Assembly: GCA_012729395.1 (NCBI GenBank)
Contig: JAAYDF010000222.1
Coordinates: 1 to 32,471, forward strand
Direction of reading: 5' to 3'
Length of the DNA: 32,471 bases
From: Phycisphaerae bacterium
GTDB taxonomy: Bacteria; Planctomycetota; Phycisphaerae; UBA1845; PWPN01
The notes under the pieces were generated by a model. The model did not search any database. It was not told the DNA's origin and worked only from the letters and a program-made list of their open reading frames with translations. Positions 2,762-32,456 of this stretch are shown piece by piece; position 1 is the stretch's first letter; every line of letters begins with the position of its first letter. Made by a program: the position numbers and the translations under genes.

Positions 2762-3039
2762 CGGTCACGCCGGGCAGCGGCAGGGCGTCGCATCGGGCTT
2801 TCGTGGTGCGGGCGTTCCTCTTGTGTGTGTGCAGCCGGAGGGAACTGTACCGCCGAGAGGGCGTCCGGCCGCGAGCGCCGGCTCGCGGCATGGAGAGGTT
2901 ATATCGGGTTCCGTGGTGGGGCAGTCGCTTGAGCTGTGTGGCTTGGATGGATGGGCTGCTTTGCCGCGGAGTGATCTGATGTGTGTGGGGTGACTTGGGT
3001 GGTCGATGCTCGTCGGCGTCGGTGTCGAAGGAGGCGAAG

Positions 3040-5448
3040 ATGAGACGGTTGATGTTTCTCGCGATGCTTGTTTCGGTTGTTCGCGTGGCGTCTGGGCAGA
3101 TTGTGATCACCGAATGGATGTACAACGGTTCCGGGACGGGCAGCACGGGGGAGTTCGTCGAGTTCACGAACGTCGGGACCGAGTCGGTTGATATGACCGG
3201 TTGGAGTTTCGACGACGACAGCCGCATTGCCGGGACCATCAGCCTGAGTGCCTTTGGAGTGGTCCTCGCTGGCCAATCGGTGATTCTGACGGATGAACCG
3301 GCCGAGGATTTCGCCACGATATGGAGCTTGAGCGGGGTCAAGATTATCGGCGGCAGCACGGCGAACCTGGGCCGCAATGACGAGATCAACCTGTACGATG
3401 CGGGGAGCAATCTGGTCGACCGGCTGAGTTATGGCGACGAGACCTATCCGGGTACGGTGCGGACTCAGTACCGGAGCTGCAACATACCGGCCACGGGTTA
3501 CAGTTACACCCAGGTGCAGGCGGGTTGGGTCTTGGCCTCGGAGGGGGATTCGTTTGGTTCGAAGGTTTCGACGCGAGGGGAAGTCGCCAGTCCCGGACGG
3601 ATTGTGAATTGTTCAAAGTACGATCTTGACTGCGACAGCGACGTGGATGTCGTGGATGTCAATGCTTTCCGCCCTTGTCTTGCGGGATCGGGTGTTTTTT
3701 ACGATCCGCTGCCGTCCGGTTGCTCCATGACGCCGGATGCGGAGGGTTACATCGGGGCCGATCTCGACCGCGACGAAGACGTGGATCAAGATGACTTCGG
3801 CATGCTTCAGCGATGCTACAGTGGTCCCGGGGTTCCGCTGGATCCATCGTGTCTTGAGAGCTCGGGTGGCAGCGGCACAGCGGAGATCATCCTGAACGGC
3901 AATTCCATCACCGTGACGGGCGACGGTGTGACCGTGGACGGTACGAAGGCCACGGTGATAGCGGCGGGCACATATCATGTGACCGGTGCGCTGGCCGACG
4001 GGCAACTCGCGGTCAACGCCAACACCGAGGGCGTCGTCGAGCTGATCCTGGATGGGGTCAACATCAGCAACTCCACGACCGCTCCGATATGCATCCTGAG
4101 CGCCGACGAGGCTTCCATCGTCCTGGCGGCGGGGAGCGCCAACTATCTTTCCGACCCAACGACCTACGTCTTCGAGAATCCCGAGGAGGATGAACCCAAC
4201 GCGGCTCTGTTTAGCTACGATCGCCTGACCATCTCGGGCAGCGGGTCGCTGACGGTGACCGGGAATTACAACGACGCGATTGCCAGCAAGGATGAGCTGA
4301 TTATCACGGGCGGCACGATTACGGCGAACGCGGTGGATGATGGGATTCGGGGCAAGGATTACCTGTTCGTGACTGGTGGGACCATCACCGTCGTCGCGGG
4401 CGGGGATGGTTTGAAGTCAGACAATGAGGAGGATACCGCGCTGGGATTCATCTCCATCGGGGGCGGTTCTCTGAATATCACCTCGGGTGGCGACGCCATC
4501 ACAGCCCAAACCAGTGCCACCGTTACCGCGGGGAGTCTCGTTCTGAAATCGGGTGGGGGTAGCAACGTCACCATCCCTGATACCTTGTCCGCCAAGGGCA
4601 TCAAGGCCCCCGTCAGCGTGGTCATCGAGGGCGGGACGTTTTCGATCAACGCCGCCGATGACGCCGTGCACTCCAACGACAGCATGACCATCAACGGCGG
4701 CACCTTCAGCATTGCCACCGCGGACGATGGCTTCCACGCGGACAATACGCTGGTGATCACCGATGGGACCATCAACATCACCAAGTCGTATGAGGGCATC
4801 GAGAGCAAGGCGCTTACCATCAACGGCGGAGAGATCCATACTGTATCGAGCGATGACGGCATCAATGGAGCCGGTGGGGTGGATGGCTCGGGCACCTGGC
4901 CCCCCGGACCCGGACAGCCGCCGGCCGGAAGCGGGTCTCTCGCGATCAACGGGGGGTATATCGCGGTGATTGCCGCCGGCGACGGCATTGATGTGAACGG
5001 CAATATCGTGATGACCGGAGGCACGGTGATCGTCCACGGTCCGACCTCGGACAACAACGGGGCCATGGATTACGATGGTTCGTTCAATATCAGTGGTGGG
5101 TTCCTGGTGGCGGCCGGGAGTGGCGGGATGGTCCAGACCCCGAGTACCTCGTCGACGCAGCGATCGGTTCATCTGAGGTACCAGTCAAGCCGGCCGGCCG
5201 GCACGCTGCTCAACATTCAGCGGTCGGGCACCAGTCTCCTGACCTTCGCGCCCTCGAAGGCGTATCGGTCGGTGGTGTTCTCCGCACCGACGCTTGTTTC
5301 GGGATCCGGCTACAGCGTTTATAGGCAGGGGAGCTGCTCAGGCACCCTGAAGGACGGTCTGTACACAGGAGGAACCTATACGCCCGGCACGTTGTCCACG
5401 ACGTTCACGATATCGAACATTGTGACGACCGTGAACAACCTGCCCTGA
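3040..5448 (+). CDS. Secreted LTD / dockerin-like / Cthe_2159 beta-helix protein
   Basis: An 802-residue modular extracellular protein. Residues 1-19 are a signal peptide and 20-185 a lamin-tail domain. Residues about 190-275 hold two EF-hand-like loops (DLDCDSDVDVVDV and DLDRDEDVDQDDF), as in planctomycete dockerin-like modules. From about 280 to 700 is a Cthe_2159-type carbohydrate-binding domain: parallel beta-helix turns with repeated GGTI/INGG, DDGI, GDGLKSDN and SAKGIKA motifs. A conserved tail of about 100 residues follows. The Clostridium thermocellum family founder binds cellulose-like and pectic polysaccharides, and some turns here carry Asp-rich ladders suited to calcium. The start at 3040 has AAGGAGG five bases upstream. 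No PEP-CTERM signal or membrane anchor is visible. A close paralogue is encoded at 9476. Binding target is unknown. Confidence 0.85.
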   Translation: MRRLMFLAMLVSVVRVASGQIVITEWMYNGSGTGSTGEFVEFTNVGTESVDMTGWSFDDDSRIAGTISLSAFGVVLAGQSVILTDEPAEDFATIWSLSGVKIIGGSTANLGRNDEINLYDAGSNLVDRLSYGDETYPGTVRTQYRSCNIPATGYSYTQVQAGWVLASEGDSFGSKVSTRGEVASPGRIVNCSKYDLDCDSDVDVVDVNAFRPCLAGSGVFYDPLPSGCSMTPDAEGYIGADLDRDEDVDQDDFGMLQRCYSGPGVPLDPSCLESSGGSGTAEIILNGNSITVTGDGVTVDGTKATVIAAGTYHVTGALADGQLAVNANTEGVVELILDGVNISNSTTAPICILSADEASIVLAAGSANYLSDPTTYVFENPEEDEPNAALFSYDRLTISGSGSLTVTGNYNDAIASKDELIITGGTITANAVDDGIRGKDYLFVTGGTITVVAGGDGLKSDNEEDTALGFISIGGGSLNITSGGDAITAQTSATVTAGSLVLKSGGGSNVTIPDTLSAKGIKAPVSVVIEGGTFSINAADDAVHSNDSMTINGGTFSIATADDGFHADNTLVITDGTINITKSYEGIESKALTINGGEIHTVSSDDGINGAGGVDGSGTWPPGPGQPPAGSGSLAINGGYIAVIAAGDGIDVNGNIVMTGGTVIVHGPTSDNNGAMDYDGSFNISGGFLVAAGSGGMVQTPSTSSTQRSVHLRYQSSRPAGTLLNIQRSGTSLLTFAPSKAYRSVVFSAPTLVSGSGYSVYRQGSCSGTLKDGLYTGGTYTPGTLSTTFTISNIVTTVNNLP

Positions 5449-5724: not shown

Positions 5725-6426
5725 ATGCGTGTGAACCATCAGATGAGGTCAGGCGGTTTGGGTTTCACTCTCATTGAAGTCCTGGTGGTCATAGCCATCA
5801 TCTCTTTGCTGATCAGTATTCTGATTCCTTCGCTGGCGCGTGGCCGCGAGAATGCTCGCTCGGTAGTCTGCCGCAGCAACCTCTCGCATCTGGGCCGCGC
5901 CATGCTGATGTACGGTCAGGAATTCCGCGGCATGCTGCCGTACGAGAATCGGCCGGACCCCGCCGATCCGTTACAGCACGGGCGTCTTTGTTGGTATGAC
6001 GCGGTGGACCGGTATCTCAAAACCGCGGAGAACCAGAAGGGGGTGAAGATCTGCCCGACGGTCGAGCGTGACGACCCGCAGCGCATCGAGGGCTACCGGA
6101 TGAACAGCAAGCTGGCGGAGTCCAACGCGGCCAGTCCGTACTATCGTCCCTATCGGAAGGTCGATACTCTGAAACGTCCCTTCGAGACGGTGATGCTCTT
6201 CGACGCGGACGTGGGAGGCGAGGTGGTTTCGCTCAAAGGGCGCTGGCGGATCAGCCGGGATGACGTCAACTACCGTCACAACGACGCCACGAACCTTCTT
6301 TACGTCGAAGGAAACGTGGAGAACAGTAAGCGTCGTCCGCTTCGCCAGCGATCCATCAACAACACACCGGTGATCTGGCAGCCACCCGATCTGGGTGCCT
6401 GGGATCCTGATCCGGAGACCGAGTGA
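5725..6426 (+). CDS. Type II secretion pseudopilin-like protein, H-X9-EG type
   Basis: A 233-residue protein with a class III signal: a short basic leader, then G13 | FTLIE, followed by a hydrophobic helix (VLVVIAIISLLISILIPSLA). A prepilin peptidase would cut before F14. The body resembles the large planctomycete family of pseudopilin-like proteins whose C-terminal part carries an H-X9-DG motif. Here it reads RHNDATNLLYVEGNV, so the D is replaced by E. The ATG at 5725 is chosen, though a GTG at 5731 is also possible with AAGG at 5719. Its stop shares a base with the next start (TGATG), so it is probably translated together with the VTC and DUF4956 genes. Its role here is unknown; it may help to assemble or export the neighbouring surface proteins (inference). 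Confidence 0.82.
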   Translation: MRVNHQMRSGGLGFTLIEVLVVIAIISLLISILIPSLARGRENARSVVCRSNLSHLGRAMLMYGQEFRGMLPYENRPDPADPLQHGRLCWYDAVDRYLKTAENQKGVKICPTVERDDPQRIEGYRMNSKLAESNAASPYYRPYRKVDTLKRPFETVMLFDADVGGEVVSLKGRWRISRDDVNYRHNDATNLLYVEGNVENSKRRPLRQRSINNTPVIWQPPDLGAWDPDPETE

Positions 6427-7169
6427 TGATCGTGGCAGCCCCCGTCGCCTCCGGCACTTTTGCCCGTCGCGTGGAGCATAAGTACTGGCTTCCACCCGGT
6501 GAGCTGGATGCCACGATCGAACGGTTGCAGACCTTCGTTCCCATTTTTCGATATTCATCGTGCTGGTGGGCCAGTATCCGCACGGTGTGTTTGGACACGC
6601 CGGAGGGGCAGTGCTACCGGGATTACCTCGATGGCCTGGCTGTTCGGTGGAAGGTTCGCATCCGGCAGTACGGCGCCCAAGGCCGGTTTGGGGACCGGTG
6701 CTGGTGCGAGATCAAGATGAAGAACCGAGGAATCAGCTCGAAGCGGCGGTTCAATTCCCCGCTTTCGGAGGTGTGCCGGTTGGTGGATGGTGGGCGGATC
6801 GCCGAGGAGAGCATTGCGGACCAAGGCCCGGAGACCCTCGAGGTCTTCCGGCGGATTGCCTGGCTGATTCGATCCAAACGGTTGCGTCCGAAGGTGCGCA
6901 TCGACTATGAACGCCTTTCCTTCCAGAATGGCCCGGACGACAGTGTGCGTATCACGCTGGATCGGAATCTTTGCTTTATGGCGGCGGGGCGCCCGCAACG
7001 TGGAAGCATGCAGGGGCTGATCCTGGAACTGAAGTACAACGGTTTGGCGCCGCCATGGTTTGACGAACTTCACGACTACATTTCGCTTCACCGGGCTCAC
7101 CGTTTCTCGAAGTATGCGCGGGCGGTCGGTGCCCTGGACAGTGCGGTTTTATCAGGAGCCCTCTCATGA
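6426..7169 (+). CDS. VTC-domain (polyphosphate polymerase-like) protein
   Basis: A 247-residue soluble protein with the whole VTC triphosphate-tunnel fold. The charged strands that line the tunnel are in order: EHKY (17-20), KVRIR (76-80), EIKMK (95-99), KRR (106-108), PKVRIDYER (155-163), VRITLDR (174-180), ELKY (201-204) and SKY (228-230). In yeast the related Vtc4 domain makes polyphosphate from ATP. Bacterial relatives are annotated as polyphosphate polymerases, but their activity is mostly unproven. The start ATG overlaps the stop of the pseudopilin gene, with GGAG eight bases upstream, and its own end overlaps the DUF4956 start (ATGA). This suggests one transcript and coupled translation. 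All expected basic and acidic residues are present, so it is probably active. Confidence 0.88.
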   Translation: MIVAAPVASGTFARRVEHKYWLPPGELDATIERLQTFVPIFRYSSCWWASIRTVCLDTPEGQCYRDYLDGLAVRWKVRIRQYGAQGRFGDRCWCEIKMKNRGISSKRRFNSPLSEVCRLVDGGRIAEESIADQGPETLEVFRRIAWLIRSKRLRPKVRIDYERLSFQNGPDDSVRITLDRNLCFMAAGRPQRGSMQGLILELKYNGLAPPWFDELHDYISLHRAHRFSKYARAVGALDSAVLSGALS

Positions 7170-7726
7170 GCATGACCGATCACGTTTTGGATGCCCATCC
7201 TTGGTTGGACAGGCTGTTTAGCGATATTGCCGGCACTTCGGGCGAGGACTACGGCGTCGAGTCGGTGATAGCTCGGATGGTTTCAGCCGCCCTGGTTGGC
7301 TGGCTTATTGGCCAGGTCTATCGTCGAACGTTTACCGGCGTGAGGTTCAATCCCGCTTTGCCGGACACCCATGTTCTACTGGCCTTGGGAGGAGCCCTTA
7401 TTTGGCTTGTGGTTGGTAACAGCATCGTGCGCGCGTTTGGGCTCGCCGGGACGGTCGGATTGATTCGCTACCGAACCATCGTGCCCGACCCCAAGGACAC
7501 GACCATTCTGCTGTTCAGCTTGGTCATGGGGATGGCCTGCGGGATTGGACTGCTTGTAGTAGCTTGGGTGGGCACGCTTATTCTCTTGATGGCGATGGTT
7601 TTGCTCCATTGGGGGCATAGGAGAGTCCGCCAGACCGAGTCGGAGAACACCAGCATCATTGAGTTGTTCAAAGCGGATTCGCCGCCGGAGAAGAAGGCGG
7701 AGCAACCGGGGAAGGATGTCTTGTGA
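7166..7726 (+). CDS. DUF4956 integral membrane protein
   Basis: A 186-residue inner-membrane protein with about four hydrophobic segments: residues near 30-48, 70-90, 105-125 and 128-150. The family signature RAFGLAGTVGLIRYRT followed by DPKDT is present between the second and third helices; related proteins read R(A/T)FGL(V/A)G..(I/L)IR(F/Y)RT..DP.DT. Its biochemical role is unknown. DUF4956 proteins commonly sit beside VTC-domain genes, and here the start overlaps the VTC stop by four bases (ATGA), with AGGAG seven bases upstream. The two products are therefore likely made in similar amounts and may form a membrane complex. The highly charged C-terminal tail is probably cytoplasmic. Confidence 0.87.
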   Translation: MSMTDHVLDAHPWLDRLFSDIAGTSGEDYGVESVIARMVSAALVGWLIGQVYRRTFTGVRFNPALPDTHVLLALGGALIWLVVGNSIVRAFGLAGTVGLIRYRTIVPDPKDTTILLFSLVMGMACGIGLLVVAWVGTLILLMAMVLLHWGHRRVRQTESENTSIIELFKADSPPEKKAEQPGKDVL

Positions 7727-8178
7727 GACGGTGCCGCGAATGGGCCGTGAGGTGCGATACGATTCGTCACAGGTGTCCGGGACGTGTGGTGTGCTGGTTG
7801 ATACTCAGCAACGCCGTGGCAAGGGCAGAGAGTCTGCCGCAGTGATTGATTGGGATGGTAGAGATCCGGAGGCGCATCGTTCCTACCGGCCGTGCCGCGG
7901 CGGTGATCGTGCATGGCGGTGATCGTGGGGTCTCTCGCCCGTGCTCTATGAGTGCCGGCACGCACCGGCCCTACCTATGCTGTTGCCTCGCCCAAGGGAG
8001 TGCGCGGCTGTTGTGGCTCCCGGCCGTGGTCTGTGTGCGCTGACGGACATGGCATACCGTGCAAGAGGCCGCCCATGCCGGCGAAGAGTTCATCCTACTA
8101 TTCTGCGGGATACTCTCAATGAACGGGCAATGGAGGCTTCGCGGCGGCGTTCAAGCTAGTGGATCTGTTCTGCGCGGA
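7727..8178. other. Intergenic or decayed region, no intact gene
   Basis: About 450 bases between DUF4956 and the broken VTC/HlyD segment. Short open stretches occur on both strands, but none has recognisable domains or a good ribosome-binding site. The region upstream of a VTC C-terminal fragment should hold the VTC N-terminal half. None of the expected motifs (ExKY, R-x-R strand) can be read here in any frame, so that half has been deleted or is fully decayed. Confidence 0.5.
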
Positions 8179-8478
8179 TATGAGACTTGTGTGCCGCGTC
8201 AGGCGGTGGCGTCTCTGTTGTCAGGCGGGCTCCGGTGTTTGCCGGGGACGACTGATGATCGCCGGAATATCGAGCAATTTCTGCACTACCGGCAGGAGAG
8301 TGGGGCTGTGCCGGTGATACGCGTTCGGTACGTGCGTCGCGCTTTCGAGAGTCGGTCCGCGGATGACGTGCGTGTCACCTTCGACCGGCGGCTGAGCTTC
8401 AACGTGACGCGTGAAGAGGAGGTGGGCCTCAACGGGCTCGGCTGGCAGCCGTTGCGCGGAGATCTGGTGGTGTTGGAG
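8179..8478 (+). pseudogene. Remnant of a second VTC-domain gene (C-terminal half)
   Basis: Read in the frame of 8059-8619, this part encodes FLHYRQESGAVPVIRVRY, then RRAFES, VRVTFDRRLSF and a final LVVLE. These are the later strands of the VTC domain and match in order those of the intact gene at 6426 (PKVRIDYERLSF, VRITLDRNLCF, LILELK). The sequence is diverged, so it is a different paralogue and not a recent copy. The N-terminal half and the closing ELK...SKY end are missing. The frame runs directly into an HlyD-type coiled coil at about 8479. A deletion that fused two neighbouring genes is the simplest reading. The exact left end is uncertain. Confidence 0.6.
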
Positions 8479-9363
8479 GACGATCTGGTTCAGGCTTCAC
8501 TGGCCACGGCTGCCGCGGAGGCCTCGCGTCTTCGGGCTGAGCTGGCTGCCGCGGAGGGCCGAATCGTCGTTGAGTCCGCAGTTCAGGAGGCCGAGCATCT
8601 GGCGGAGGCCAGACGATGAGCCGTGGACGTGGAGATGAACAGACTGAAAGAACTCGAAATCGCAGCGCTGATCGAAACGGATCGGGTCAGGCTGGAGTTC
8701 TTGCGTCTTCAGATGGCAGTGTTGAGCAAGCTGCAGGCTCAGCAGACGGTGTCCAACCTGACTTCCAGGGAGGCCGAAGCAGAGTGCCGGGCTATCGAGA
8801 AAAGCGTCCAAGAGAATGAGAAGACGTTGGCCCAGGCGCGTCTGGATTTGGCGCAGGCACGCCAGCGGCAGGAAGCCTTCGAGAAGAATCACGTGGTCCC
8901 ACAACAGGTGGATCAGGTTCTCGAACCACTGCGAGCGGCGATCACCGTGCAGGAACGGCTTATGGAAGAGCTGGGCATCCGACGCGAGATGCTCGTTCTC
9001 AAGAGTCCCATGGACGGCGTTGTTCAGCAGGTGTGGCTCGGGCCGGGCGAGTCGGCTTGGATCGGAGAGCCGGTTCTGACGGTGGTTTCGCCGCGTCCTT
9101 TCGCGGTTGTGGCCTACGCGACCGCCGACCAGGTTGGCCTTCTTGAGTCGGGTTCGCCGGTTCGGTCTCAGGTGGCGAGAGACGGCGGCGACAGGCAGTC
9201 GAAGGGTTCGCACGTTGTGGCGATTGGGCCGATGGCGGAGAAACCGCCTACTCAGTTATGGCGAAACCCGACAGTCCCTGAGTGGGGTTGGCCCGTGAAG
9301 ATCGCCGTTCCCCCCACGTTGGGTGTGCTGTGCGGCCAAATGGTCGGGGTATGCCGGCGGTGA
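8479..9363 (+). pseudogene. HlyD-type membrane fusion protein remnant with in-frame TGA
   Basis: The same frame continues from the VTC remnant as LVQASLATAAAEASRLRAEL, a typical HlyD alpha-hairpin. It meets TGA at 8617-8619 and resumes without a frame change to 9363. The second part has a long coiled coil (about 8635-8985), a half-lipoyl motif (LKSPMDGVVQQVWLGPGE) and a beta-barrel ending WRNPTVPEWGWPVKI, as in planctomycete HlyD adaptors. The N-terminal membrane helix and first half-lipoyl segment are absent. No good ribosome-binding site precedes GTG 8623 or ATG 8635. HlyD adaptors link inner-membrane exporters to the outer membrane. This copy is probably not functional unless the TGA is a sequencing error, and even then it would lack its membrane anchor. 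Confidence 0.7.
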
Positions 9364-9475
9364 AGGCTCGATCGACATGTGAGGCGTATGTGGACGTGTG
9401 TCGGCATTCCAGGCGTGAACCCGTCATGGCGAAGTGGTGTTGGCCGGAGAGATCGGGACGGGTAGGAGCAAGACG

Positions 9476-11248
9476 ATGTGCAGGTCAATGATGATGCGTG
9501 GGTTGGTGTGCAGCGTGTTCTCATTGATGGTTATGGGTGTTGAATGTGTCAGTGACGTTGGGTCTTCGGGCGGTAGCGATACCGGTTCCGTCGACGACTC
9601 GGGCAAGACGGGCGATACGGAGAACCAGCAGGGTGCCGGCCATGAGAGCACGGGCGACTATACTTGGGACAGCTCCGAGGTGACGTTCATCACCTGCGAG
9701 GGTAGCTCGGCGGTGGTGCATGGGGCTGGCGCTACCGCCGTCGGCGGGGTCATCACGATCACTTCTGCGGGGACATACAGCGTCAAGGGTAGTCTGACCG
9801 ACGGGCAGATCATCGTGAATGCGGACAGTAGTTCGCTCGTCAGGCTGGTTCTTAACGGAGTCTCCATTCGCGGCTCCGCGAGAGCGCCCGTGCACGTTTT
9901 GCGGGCGGATAAGGTCGTGATCATGCTTGCGGATCAGACCTCCAACCTCATCGAGGGGGGGACGACGTACGTGCAGCAGGGCACGACGACCGACGAGCCC
10001 AACGCGGCCATTTTCAGTATGACCGATCTGTCCATTTCGGGTAACGGGTCCCTGTCAGTCACCGGCGATTACGGCGACGGCATCACGAGCAAGGACGGGC
10101 TCATTATCGCCGGCGGGACAATCAGCGTGAATACGATCGATGATGGCATTCGGGGCAAGGACTACCTCATCCTGCGCAACAGCACCGTCGACGTGGTCTG
10201 CGGTGGCGATGGGCTGAAATCCGACAACACGGCTGATGCGGCGTTGGGGTTTATCACTGTGCAGAGCGGTTTACTGCATGTGACCTGCGGCGGGGATGCC
10301 ATCACGGCGGAAACGGAGGTCCACATGGCGGGCGGCAATGTGGTCCTGAGCTCGGGCGGAGGTAGTACGGCCACGATTTCGAGCACATTGTCCGCCAAGG
10401 GAATCAAAGCGGGGGTCAACGTGGTCATTGACGGCGGGACCTGCTCGATCAACTCGGCGGAGGACGCCGTCCATTCCGATGACAGCATGACCATCAACGG
10501 CGGCACCTTCACCGTTTCAGCGAAGGATGACGCATTTCGTGCCGAGGCCGTCCTGATCATCAACGATGGGGTCATCAACGTCACCAAGTGCTACGAGGGG
10601 ATCGAGAGCAAGGCCATTACCATCAACGGCGGGAGCATCCAGATCGTGGCCAGCGACGACGCGATCAATGGTGCCGGCGGAGTGGACGGCTCGGGCTACG
10701 CGCGCTGGCCGGGCAAGCCTATGCAAACCGGGAATGCCTCGCTTTCAATACACGGCGGTCACGTCGCTGTGTACTCGACGGGAGACGGCATCGACGTGAA
10801 CGGTGCCATCGTCATGACCGGTGGGACGGTCATCATTCACGGGCCCACATCGAACAATGAGGGAGCCATCGATTACGACTCGTCGTTCAACATCAGCGGC
10901 GGCACGCTGGTGGCGGCAGGGAGTGCGGGCATGGCCCAGGCTCCAAGTACCACGTCGACGCAGCGGTCGGTGCATCTGAAGTATCAGTCGGCCCGGCCGG
11001 CCGGTACTATCATCAATATCCAGCGGTCCGGCAGCAACCTGCTGACCTTCGCTCCGACCAAGACCTACCGGTCGGTGGCCTTCTCCTCACCGGCGCTTGT
11101 CCAGGCTTCTGGATACGGCGTGTACAGGGGCGGCAGTTCAACAGGGACAGTCAAGAACGGTCTGTACTCGGGCGGTGTCTATACCGGCAGCCTATCGAGT
11201 ACATTCAGCATCCAGAACGTGGTCACGAACGTGAACAACCTGCCGTAG
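9476..11248 (+). CDS. Secreted Cthe_2159-type carbohydrate-binding beta-helix protein
   Basis: A 590-residue protein. The first 26 or so residues are a hydrophobic export signal. A low-complexity Ser/Gly/Asp/Thr linker follows (about 28-60), then a Cthe_2159 beta-helix domain (about 65-490) with turns such as IRGKDYL, GDGLKSDN, SAKGIKA and MTINGGTFT. A tail of about 100 residues ends NVVTNVNNLP. It is a clear paralogue of the protein at 3040, alike across the helix and tail, but lacks the lamin-tail and dockerin-like modules. AGGAG at 9464-9468 lies seven bases before ATG 9476. A Cys ends the signal region (GVEC), but Glu at position -1 argues against a lipobox. It probably binds an extracellular polysaccharide and calcium (family inference). 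Confidence 0.85.
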   Translation: MCRSMMMRGLVCSVFSLMVMGVECVSDVGSSGGSDTGSVDDSGKTGDTENQQGAGHESTGDYTWDSSEVTFITCEGSSAVVHGAGATAVGGVITITSAGTYSVKGSLTDGQIIVNADSSSLVRLVLNGVSIRGSARAPVHVLRADKVVIMLADQTSNLIEGGTTYVQQGTTTDEPNAAIFSMTDLSISGNGSLSVTGDYGDGITSKDGLIIAGGTISVNTIDDGIRGKDYLILRNSTVDVVCGGDGLKSDNTADAALGFITVQSGLLHVTCGGDAITAETEVHMAGGNVVLSSGGGSTATISSTLSAKGIKAGVNVVIDGGTCSINSAEDAVHSDDSMTINGGTFTVSAKDDAFRAEAVLIINDGVINVTKCYEGIESKAITINGGSIQIVASDDAINGAGGVDGSGYARWPGKPMQTGNASLSIHGGHVAVYSTGDGIDVNGAIVMTGGTVIIHGPTSNNEGAIDYDSSFNISGGTLVAAGSAGMAQAPSTTSTQRSVHLKYQSARPAGTIINIQRSGSNLLTFAPTKTYRSVAFSSPALVQASGYGVYRGGSSTGTVKNGLYSGGVYTGSLSSTFSIQNVVTNVNNLP

Positions 11249-30055: not shown

Positions 30056-30430
30056 GCTCCGTGCGGGTCTCGCAGTATTGAAGGCTCGGCTTCCGGAATC
30101 ACCCTGGCCGCAGGGCAGCTCCGGCCATCGCCACTCGTAGAGCATCATAGCGGCTTTGGCCCCGGACACACAAACCGCTCGCAGCCGTTGCGTAGGGTAA
30201 CTGTTGGAGCGAGTGCGTGCCTAATAATGGGTAGTTTTGCTCACTGGCCGGGTGCGGATGTGATTGGGGGTGTCAAAATTGCCGGTCGATTGTGGCAGAC
30301 TGATTGCATTATCCGTCCACGACAGCCTCACAGGATAAGTTGTCTTCAAGCGGCTTGGCGCGTGGCCGGCGGATCGATGTCCGTCTTCGTGGTTCGGCTG
30401 CAAGGAGCCACGGAAAGAAGAGCTTGCGTC
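30056..30430. other. Divergent intergenic region
   Basis: About 375 bases between the oxidoreductase and the truncated beta-helix gene. The right half is more AT-rich and holds the candidate sigma-54 promoter at 30293. I see no gene or RNA in it. Confidence 0.5.
30293..30308 (+). promoter_or_regulatory. Candidate sigma-54 promoter for the beta-helix gene
   Basis: TGGCAGACTGATTGCA fits the -24/-12 consensus TGGCAC-N5-TTGCA, with GG and GC exactly ten bases apart and one mismatch in the conserved part. Transcription would begin near 30319, about 110 bases before ATG 30431. No activator site was identified. Confidence 0.5.
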
Positions 30431-30924
30431 ATGTCCGCATTTCGTTTGTTCTCAGCTTATGCCGCGTTCGGAGTGGCCGTAGTCAGCCTGTGTGTGGGCA
30501 CATCGGCGACGGCGTCGGTGGTCATTCATGTCGATGGTTCCTCGGGCCAGCACGCATGGTCGGGGTTGTGCGCGACCTGGGATGGGGCAACCTGCGGACC
30601 GAAGGAGACCATCCAGGCAGGCCTTGATGCCGCTCAACCGGGCGACACAGTGCTGGTTGCCGACGGCTTGTACCAGGGAGCGGGGATTGTGAACCTCGAC
30701 TTCGGCGGCAAGGCCGTGGCGCTTCGCTCGGTGAACGGGGCAGCCCATTGCGTGATCGATTGCGAGGGTGCCAGTCGTGGGTTCTATTTTCATAGCGGCG
30801 AACGTCCGGAAAGCGTGGTCGAAGGTTTCAGCGTGCGCAACGGGTTCAGCATGGCCAGCGGCGGCGGGATCTACGCCTCTCGCTCTCCCGCTCGGATTGA
30901 AGACTGTGTTACTGAGGATAATTC
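30431..30924 (+). pseudogene. Secreted beta-helix protein, 5' part cut by an insertion sequence
   Basis: The first 164 or so codons of a secreted protein. Residues 1-29 are a signal peptide (ending TSATAS). Right-handed parallel beta-helix sequence follows: TIQAGLDAAQPGDTVLVADG, ALRSVNGAAHCVIDCEG, VEGFSVRNGF and SGGGIYASRSPARIEDC. This matches the large planctomycete group of polymorphic-repeat surface proteins. At 30925 the frame runs into an insertion sequence and stops at 31000 after about 25 unrelated residues, so the product is truncated. The rest of the gene must lie beyond the window. AAGAAGAG before the ATG is a possible ribosome-binding site. Confidence 0.82.
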
Positions 30925-30939
30925 GTCGTCCCTGAAAAA
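30925..30939 (+). repeat. Left terminal inverted repeat of the IS
   Basis: GTCGTCCCTGAAAAA, the exact reverse complement of 32457-32471. Pairing stops after 15 bases. Confidence 0.92.
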
Positions 30940-31016
30940 GTCGCTTTGCGGTTTTTTCCGGTCGGCACGGGCCATCCGCGGGCTGAGGGTGGGCGGATGA
31001 CTCCTGATCCTGGCCA

Positions 31017-32348
31017 TCAGGCGGCGTAGCCGAGGGCTGAATTCGGGCTTTGGAGCAGGAGAATCTCGCTCCTCAGCCGGCGAATTAGCGCAAAAAAGAA
31101 CCACCGGAGCAGTTTGCGCAGATTGGCCCCAGCGGCGGCCAGCACCGCGTTGATCGCATCGCCTCTTAATCCTGCCAGGAAGCACCGGTCCATCCGGTGG
31201 TCGCTCTTGAGGTGGCCGATCTTCGGCTCTATGGCACTACGCCTTCGCCGACGCCGTCGTTCGGATCGCGAGCAACCGTGGCTGCTTTGGCCGGCCACGT
31301 GAATCTGAGCGCTGCCGGTGTAATCATGCCCACGATACCCCTTGTCCACGTACGCATCGGTGATGGGGACGCCGGTATTCGACTCGGCCGACGTGATGGT
31401 TGCGTTCAGCGTATGTCCGTCGTAGGGATTACTGGCCATCAGTTGTGAGGCCACGATCCAATTGCTGCGGTTGGTGGTCGCCAGGGCCACTTTCTGGCCG
31501 AATTCGTAACGTTTGTGGGCTTTACCCTTGCTGATGCACTGAACCTCCGGTTCGTGCAGGCTGTAGAGCTTGTGCGAATCCTGCCGCTGTTGCTGGCGAA
31601 TGCGCTCCGCACGCGACAACAGCGCAGCCAGATCTTCGTCCAGTTCACCGGCGTTACGACGAATGTCTCGAATCAGCCGACCCACGTAGGTGCGAAGCTT
31701 ACGCAGTTGCCGACGCATCCGCCGATACTGCTTGGCGTGGGCGTAGCGGCCGGCCATGACCGCTGCCTTCTTGCCTACCCGAACGTACGACTGCCGCAAC
31801 CAGATGCCCCGCGACTTGGCCGCCGCCACCAACTTGACCAAAGCCTTGTACAACAGCTTCGAGTCGGTCGGATAGGTCACGTTCTTCTCTTGAACGGTCG
31901 TATCCACATTGATCTGCTGGAGATCTCGCGTGGACAACTGCTTTTCACGCAACGCCAGGCTGATGGTTTCTTTGAGCAACTCTTCCAACCGCTCAGGCCC
32001 CACCCGGCCTCGCCAGCGGCTCAGGCTGCTCGGATGAAGCGGGCACTCGTGCTGCATGTGCGTGTAGCCGCAGAAGTACTGCCAATACGGGTTCTCCACC
32101 CAACGTGCCACCACCGACTCGTCCGATTGATTGAACGTGTACTTGAGGTACTGAATGCCGACCATCAGCCGAGTGGCCTTGGCCGGAGCCCCCATGTCCT
32201 GGCTGTAACTGCCCGCGAAAGCCGCGTCGAAACGTGGCCAGTCGATCTTCCGAGCCAGCTGAATCAACTCGTGGGCGGGGTTGAGAATCTGATCGAAATG
32301 GGCCTGGAATAGCTGAAAAACGTCGCAAGGCTGAGGCTTGGGTTTCAT
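31017..32348 (-). CDS. IS5-family DDE transposase
   Basis: A 443-residue transposase. The N-terminal DUF772-like part contains RLMVGIQYLKYTFNQSDESV and VENPYWQYFCGYTHMQHECP, typical of IS5-family elements. The catalytic DDE triad is readable: Asp in INVDTTVQEKNVTYPTD, Asp in ITDAYVDKGYRGHDY, and Glu in SAIEPKIGHLKSDHRMDR. The last fits the Y(2)R(3)E(6)K signature at R-SAI-E-PKIGHL-K. The middle (about 190-290) is Arg-rich and helical. I chose ATG 32348 (MKPKPQPCDVF) as the family start; an upstream in-frame codon would add 30 residues with no family match. The reading frame is complete, so the enzyme may be active. Confidence 0.93.
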   Translation of the reverse strand: MKPKPQPCDVFQLFQAHFDQILNPAHELIQLARKIDWPRFDAAFAGSYSQDMGAPAKATRLMVGIQYLKYTFNQSDESVVARWVENPYWQYFCGYTHMQHECPLHPSSLSRWRGRVGPERLEELLKETISLALREKQLSTRDLQQINVDTTVQEKNVTYPTDSKLLYKALVKLVAAAKSRGIWLRQSYVRVGKKAAVMAGRYAHAKQYRRMRRQLRKLRTYVGRLIRDIRRNAGELDEDLAALLSRAERIRQQQRQDSHKLYSLHEPEVQCISKGKAHKRYEFGQKVALATTNRSNWIVASQLMASNPYDGHTLNATITSAESNTGVPITDAYVDKGYRGHDYTGSAQIHVAGQSSHGCSRSERRRRRRRSAIEPKIGHLKSDHRMDRCFLAGLRGDAINAVLAAAGANLRKLLRWFFFALIRRLRSEILLLQSPNSALGYAA

Positions 32349-32456
32349 GGAATCCGTTCCCAAATTGCAAGGTTCTGGCAAGCCATCCGTGGTTTCCTTG
32401 CAAAATATACACCCCGCCAAGCGACATTGCAGCCCCAAAACATTGGGCTTTTAACA

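Follow-up and report, generated by a model that had tools for sequence, protein, structure and literature searches.

Next to pel operons of Gram-positive bacteria, CotH, a polyphosphate polymerase and DUF4956 have been described as accessory genes (PMC7112168). A literature search for the VTC domain in combination with DUF4956 or HlyD gave no account of the VTC–DUF4956–HlyD locus considered here, and the pel paper (PMC7112168) was the only one covering a related gene group. Like that accessory group, the planctomycete locus clusters CotH, VTC and DUF4956, and the VTC proteins that it encodes in relatives, here called type B, match the yeast polyphosphate polymerase Vtc4 (PDB 3g3q) with an E value of 1.5e-8. 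In the window, which is the whole stretch of DNA analysed (32,471 nt from a Phycisphaerae bacterium), only fragments of the group survive. We consider it probable, at about 0.88, that they are the dead remnant of a VTC–DUF4956–HlyD locus that was fused by deletion, suffered a separate break at the N-terminus of VTC and carries an internal stop. The relevant features are listed below.

6423-7169, plus strand: intact type-A VTC gene; its subtype differs from that of the remnant, and the copies in relatives have no HlyD neighbour
7166-7726, plus strand: DUF4956/MgtC-like membrane gene of type A, intact, which forms a pair with the type-A VTC gene
7727-8190, no strand: gap of 464 bases before the remnant, in which neither a VTC N-terminus nor CotH nor any other relic was recognised
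8191-8478, plus strand: type-B VTC remnant, about residues 99-194 of 279, without the N-terminal 98 and the C-terminal approximately 85 residues
8464-8478, plus strand: putative deletion joint, LVVLE codons that may come from either parent; VTC alignments stop and HlyD alignments start here
8464-9360, plus strand: HlyD-type adaptor remnant, about residues 81-379, the C-terminal three quarters
8617-8619, plus strand: in-frame TGA that interrupts the HlyD remnant, in a column where relatives carry a sense codon
9434-11248, plus strand: intact Cthe_2159 carbohydrate-binding gene; a homologue lies directly 3' of HlyD in the relative G077

Apart from the single TGA, no stop interrupts the frame between 8179 and 9363. 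The preliminary description had reported a VTC piece running in frame into an HlyD piece, and this was confirmed by the frame itself, by profiles and by protein matches to relatives. The VTC part matched Pfam VTC (PF09359, E 5.4e-8) over profile positions 123-177 of 235 only, and the part 3' of the TGA matched HlyD_3 (PF13437, E 3.1e-9). When proteins of an intact relative were used as queries, residues 99-195 of a 279-residue VTC aligned to 8191-8481 (E 1e-24), and residues 81-378 of a 379-residue HlyD aligned to 8464-9357, across the TGA (E 9.8e-108). Judged from these alignments, chance is excluded as the source of the matches. Residues 5-100 of the chimera align to VTC and residues 96-393 to HlyD, the overlap being LVVLE; the break, previously placed at 8470-8490, thus lies close by but slightly to the left. 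The VTC homology starts at 8191 and not at the frame start, and the piece, which had been called half a VTC gene, is a middle segment with both ends gone. It is 53-55% identical to the VTC of the relative G075 and retains 12 of the 12 invariant residues that fall within its stretch. In the HlyD remnant the N-terminal membrane helix is gone, as is the first part of the lipoyl hairpin, and the alignment begins at residue 81 of the relatives. Recoding of the TGA as a sense codon was considered and rejected, as adjacent genes stop with TGA.

Within the bacterium's own order, VTC, DUF4956 and HlyD are separate genes, lying in this sequence, in five relatives (G075, G031, G016, G077 and G108) and in nine more distant ones (G028, G032, G041, G044, G089, G093, G095, G107 and G111); in G008 the three genes are present but divided between two contigs. 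The intact arrangement spans at least four families of the order. A strong HlyD match was obtained in 13 other genomes of the order, and all 13 carry a VTC of the remnant's subtype at the same locus (on two contigs in G008), and DUF4956 lies between VTC and HlyD in every order relative that has the genes on one contig. In the phylum sample, VTC and DUF4956 were found upstream at 22 of 24 further HlyD loci, and the remaining two had neither within the available stretch. A contig search for relatives found two, which are the G075 and G008 loci. The homologues are thus separate and intact, and no VTC-HlyD fusion was found among the order relatives or in the sampled phylum; the earlier suggestion of a deletion scar, which a conserved chimera in other species would have contradicted, is supported. 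The proposal that the ancestral VTC gene stood beside the adaptor, so that relatives should show an intact neighbour pair and the deletion should have taken the end of one gene and the start of the next, holds in part: the two genes are intact and share a locus, and both ends were removed, but HlyD is not the next gene, since DUF4956 intervenes in relatives and was lost as well.

A CotH gene lies just upstream of VTC in G075, G008, G108, G095 and G093; in G031 it follows HlyD. A TolC-like outer-membrane protein gene directly follows HlyD in G075, G008 and G108 and is located further downstream in G031. Loci running from CotH through VTC, DUF4956 and HlyD to an outer-membrane efflux protein were observed at L044 2625-9966, L082 1246-7301 and L047 4860-10776 (with CotH after HlyD in L047); no ABC or RND pump was recognised inside these three, which are candidates for an envelope-spanning polymer exporter. 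The VTC and DUF4956 genes are separated by 0.6-0.7 kb in G075 (L044 5840-6455) and G008 (L046 5842-6570), whereas in other relatives they are adjacent or overlapping.

The position of the joint suggests how the fusion may have arisen. In six intact relatives, the VTC strand preceding the IKF motif carries V(V/I)(L/F)E, and HlyD has (A/V)VL(E/D/A)D where the lipoyl hairpin starts. In G075 the two genes have the 10-base word CGTGCTTGAG in common, in phase and exactly at the place of the joint, and CGTGCTTGAG is the sole in-phase common word of at least 9 bases between them. In other relatives the longest words common to VTC and HlyD lie at other places, and words of at least 9 bases are also found elsewhere. 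A second, diverged VTC-DUF4956-HlyD locus would have stood directly downstream of the type-A VTC-DUF4956 pair, and a deletion of approximately 1.1-2.0 kb, as estimated from relatives, would have taken the C-terminus of VTC, all of DUF4956 and the N-terminus of HlyD, with the V-V-L-E codons of VTC becoming joined to their counterparts in HlyD. Recombination between short direct repeats would be a likely route, and on the sequences such a repeat-mediated step is plausible. Because the V-x-L-E motifs have the same codon phase in both genes, the fusion would automatically be in frame, whatever the spacing of the repeats. A single deletion, as first envisaged, is not sufficient, since the N-terminal approximately 98 residues of VTC are also missing upstream; they were not found in any of the six frames of 7690-8260 by a type-B profile and low-stringency BLAST. 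A second, separate break near 8185 would have removed them, and a nonsense codon, the TGA, interrupts the HlyD part.

The source assembly is MAG-like, with 370 contigs, and is rated 99.55% complete. Given its fragmentation, a misjoin is conceivable, as is a wrong base in the TGA; the assembler might have connected two pieces of one intact locus, or pieces from two strains, with no real deletion behind the scar. We regard such an artefact as improbable: no other copies of the missing type-B VTC, DUF4956 and HlyD parts were found in the genome, the N-terminus of VTC is missing too, the TGA is an independent lesion, and Cthe_2159 comes next after the 3' end of HlyD, just as in the independent genome G077. 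This last placement also makes the right flank, as read from the sequence, probably native to the lost locus. CotH was absent from the genome by Pfam, although control genomes did yield it, and no CotH or TolC-like relic was seen in the window, apart from an out-of-frame echo of the HlyD tail. Since both the missing parts and CotH are absent from a genome of this completeness, we concluded that the type-B system is gone from it. The scar records that the bacterium formerly carried a second copy of the system. The preliminary description was right that a second VTC gene, from the locus of an HlyD adaptor, had been lost; the subtype of the remnant is distinct from that of the intact VTC gene at 6423-7169.

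Another explanation is that the fusion, or a 246-codon ORF from the GTG at 8623, is expressed as a useful new gene. The remnant keeps 89% of the invariant HlyD sites, compared with 80-92% in intact relatives, and 94% of the conserved VTC sites, compared with 83-95% in intact homologues, and its branch lengths and codon-position G+C are ordinary. Such conservation is, however, equally expected of a recent pseudogene, and the fusion was found in no other genome searched. Of the 41 invariant VTC residues 29 are lost, 23 before the remnant and 6 after it. The remnant does not have the complete set of invariant R/K/E residues of a functional VTC (motifs RxKxRxRxY, ExKR, KxR and ExKF...KY), nor the membrane anchor at the N-terminus and the full lipoyl hairpin of an HlyD adaptor. 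With these residues and the anchor lost and a stop inside, the predicted fusion product cannot work as either parent, and we consider a functional new gene very improbable. The homologues being intact, separate and full-length, and the remnant truncated and interrupted with its missing parts nowhere else in the genome, it is probably an ordinary pseudogene. No erosion of conserved sites of the kind that marks old decay was seen in it, the damage consisting of the breaks and the stop; because its conserved residues survive as in intact homologues, the loss looks recent relative to divergence. That the VTC piece is instead a broken duplicate of the type-A VTC gene about 1 kb away can be practically dismissed, since it is 43-55% identical to its best HlyD-linked VTC matches, type-A relatives match it weakly (E 4e-3 to 3e-6), and the type-A family occurs without HlyD in G002, G011 and G062.

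In those three genomes type-A VTC is likewise paired with DUF4956, and no other searched genome of the order has both VTC subtypes together. With the intact type-A pair beside it, the type-B locus may have become dispensable. The gap at 7727-8190 gave no sign of a mobile-element or repeat origin, being single-copy in the genome except for one 24-base match. Several other features of the window were observed. Two Cthe_2159 genes (2983-5448 and 9434-11248), with 62% protein identity and 71% DNA identity over 1.26 kb, enclose the type-A pair and the scar and are a possible recombination substrate. At 2084-2761, an ORF with a lamin-tail domain is similar to the N-terminus of the next LTD-Cthe_2159 protein (2983-3500, 63%), a local duplication being likely. 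Close to the contig end (region 30400-32438), a transposase gene (DUF772/DDE) lies on the minus strand at 31017-32438; the ORF before it, possibly cut by the insertion, resembles the beginning of a beta-helix surface protein.

The scar itself is a minor finding, which records the loss of one of two VTC systems that coexisted in the lineage. It is of value indirectly, as a pointer to a VTC–DUF4956–HlyD module that is conserved across Planctomycetota and apparently uncharacterised; in several genomes this module is accompanied by CotH and a TolC-like outer-membrane protein, and it suggests a testable route of polymer export through a two-membrane envelope. In the lost system, VTC with DUF4956 would have made a phosphate polymer or a related product at the inner membrane, and HlyD with a TolC-like outer-membrane protein would have linked them across the envelope.

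Compared with VTC (PF09359) and Vtc4, the remnant in the window keeps the middle only, without those 29 of 41 invariant residues. Compared with HlyD and other membrane fusion proteins (PF13437, PF16576), it has the coiled-coil hairpin and the C-terminal lipoyl/barrel part, whereas the N-terminal membrane helix and the first lipoyl half are deleted and the TGA lies inside. The planctomycete locus differs from the Gram-positive pel accessory group in that HlyD is added and several genomes also have a TolC-like outer-membrane protein; judging from synteny, these additions suggest an envelope-spanning export system, and any novelty is possibly confined to this export module. We propose only tentatively, and regard as rather unlikely, that the intact CotH-VTC-DUF4956-HlyD-outer-membrane channel locus encodes an undescribed planctomycete machine in which VTC and DUF4956 would replace the ABC or RND pump and export polyphosphate or another phosphate polymer via HlyD and the TolC-like channel.
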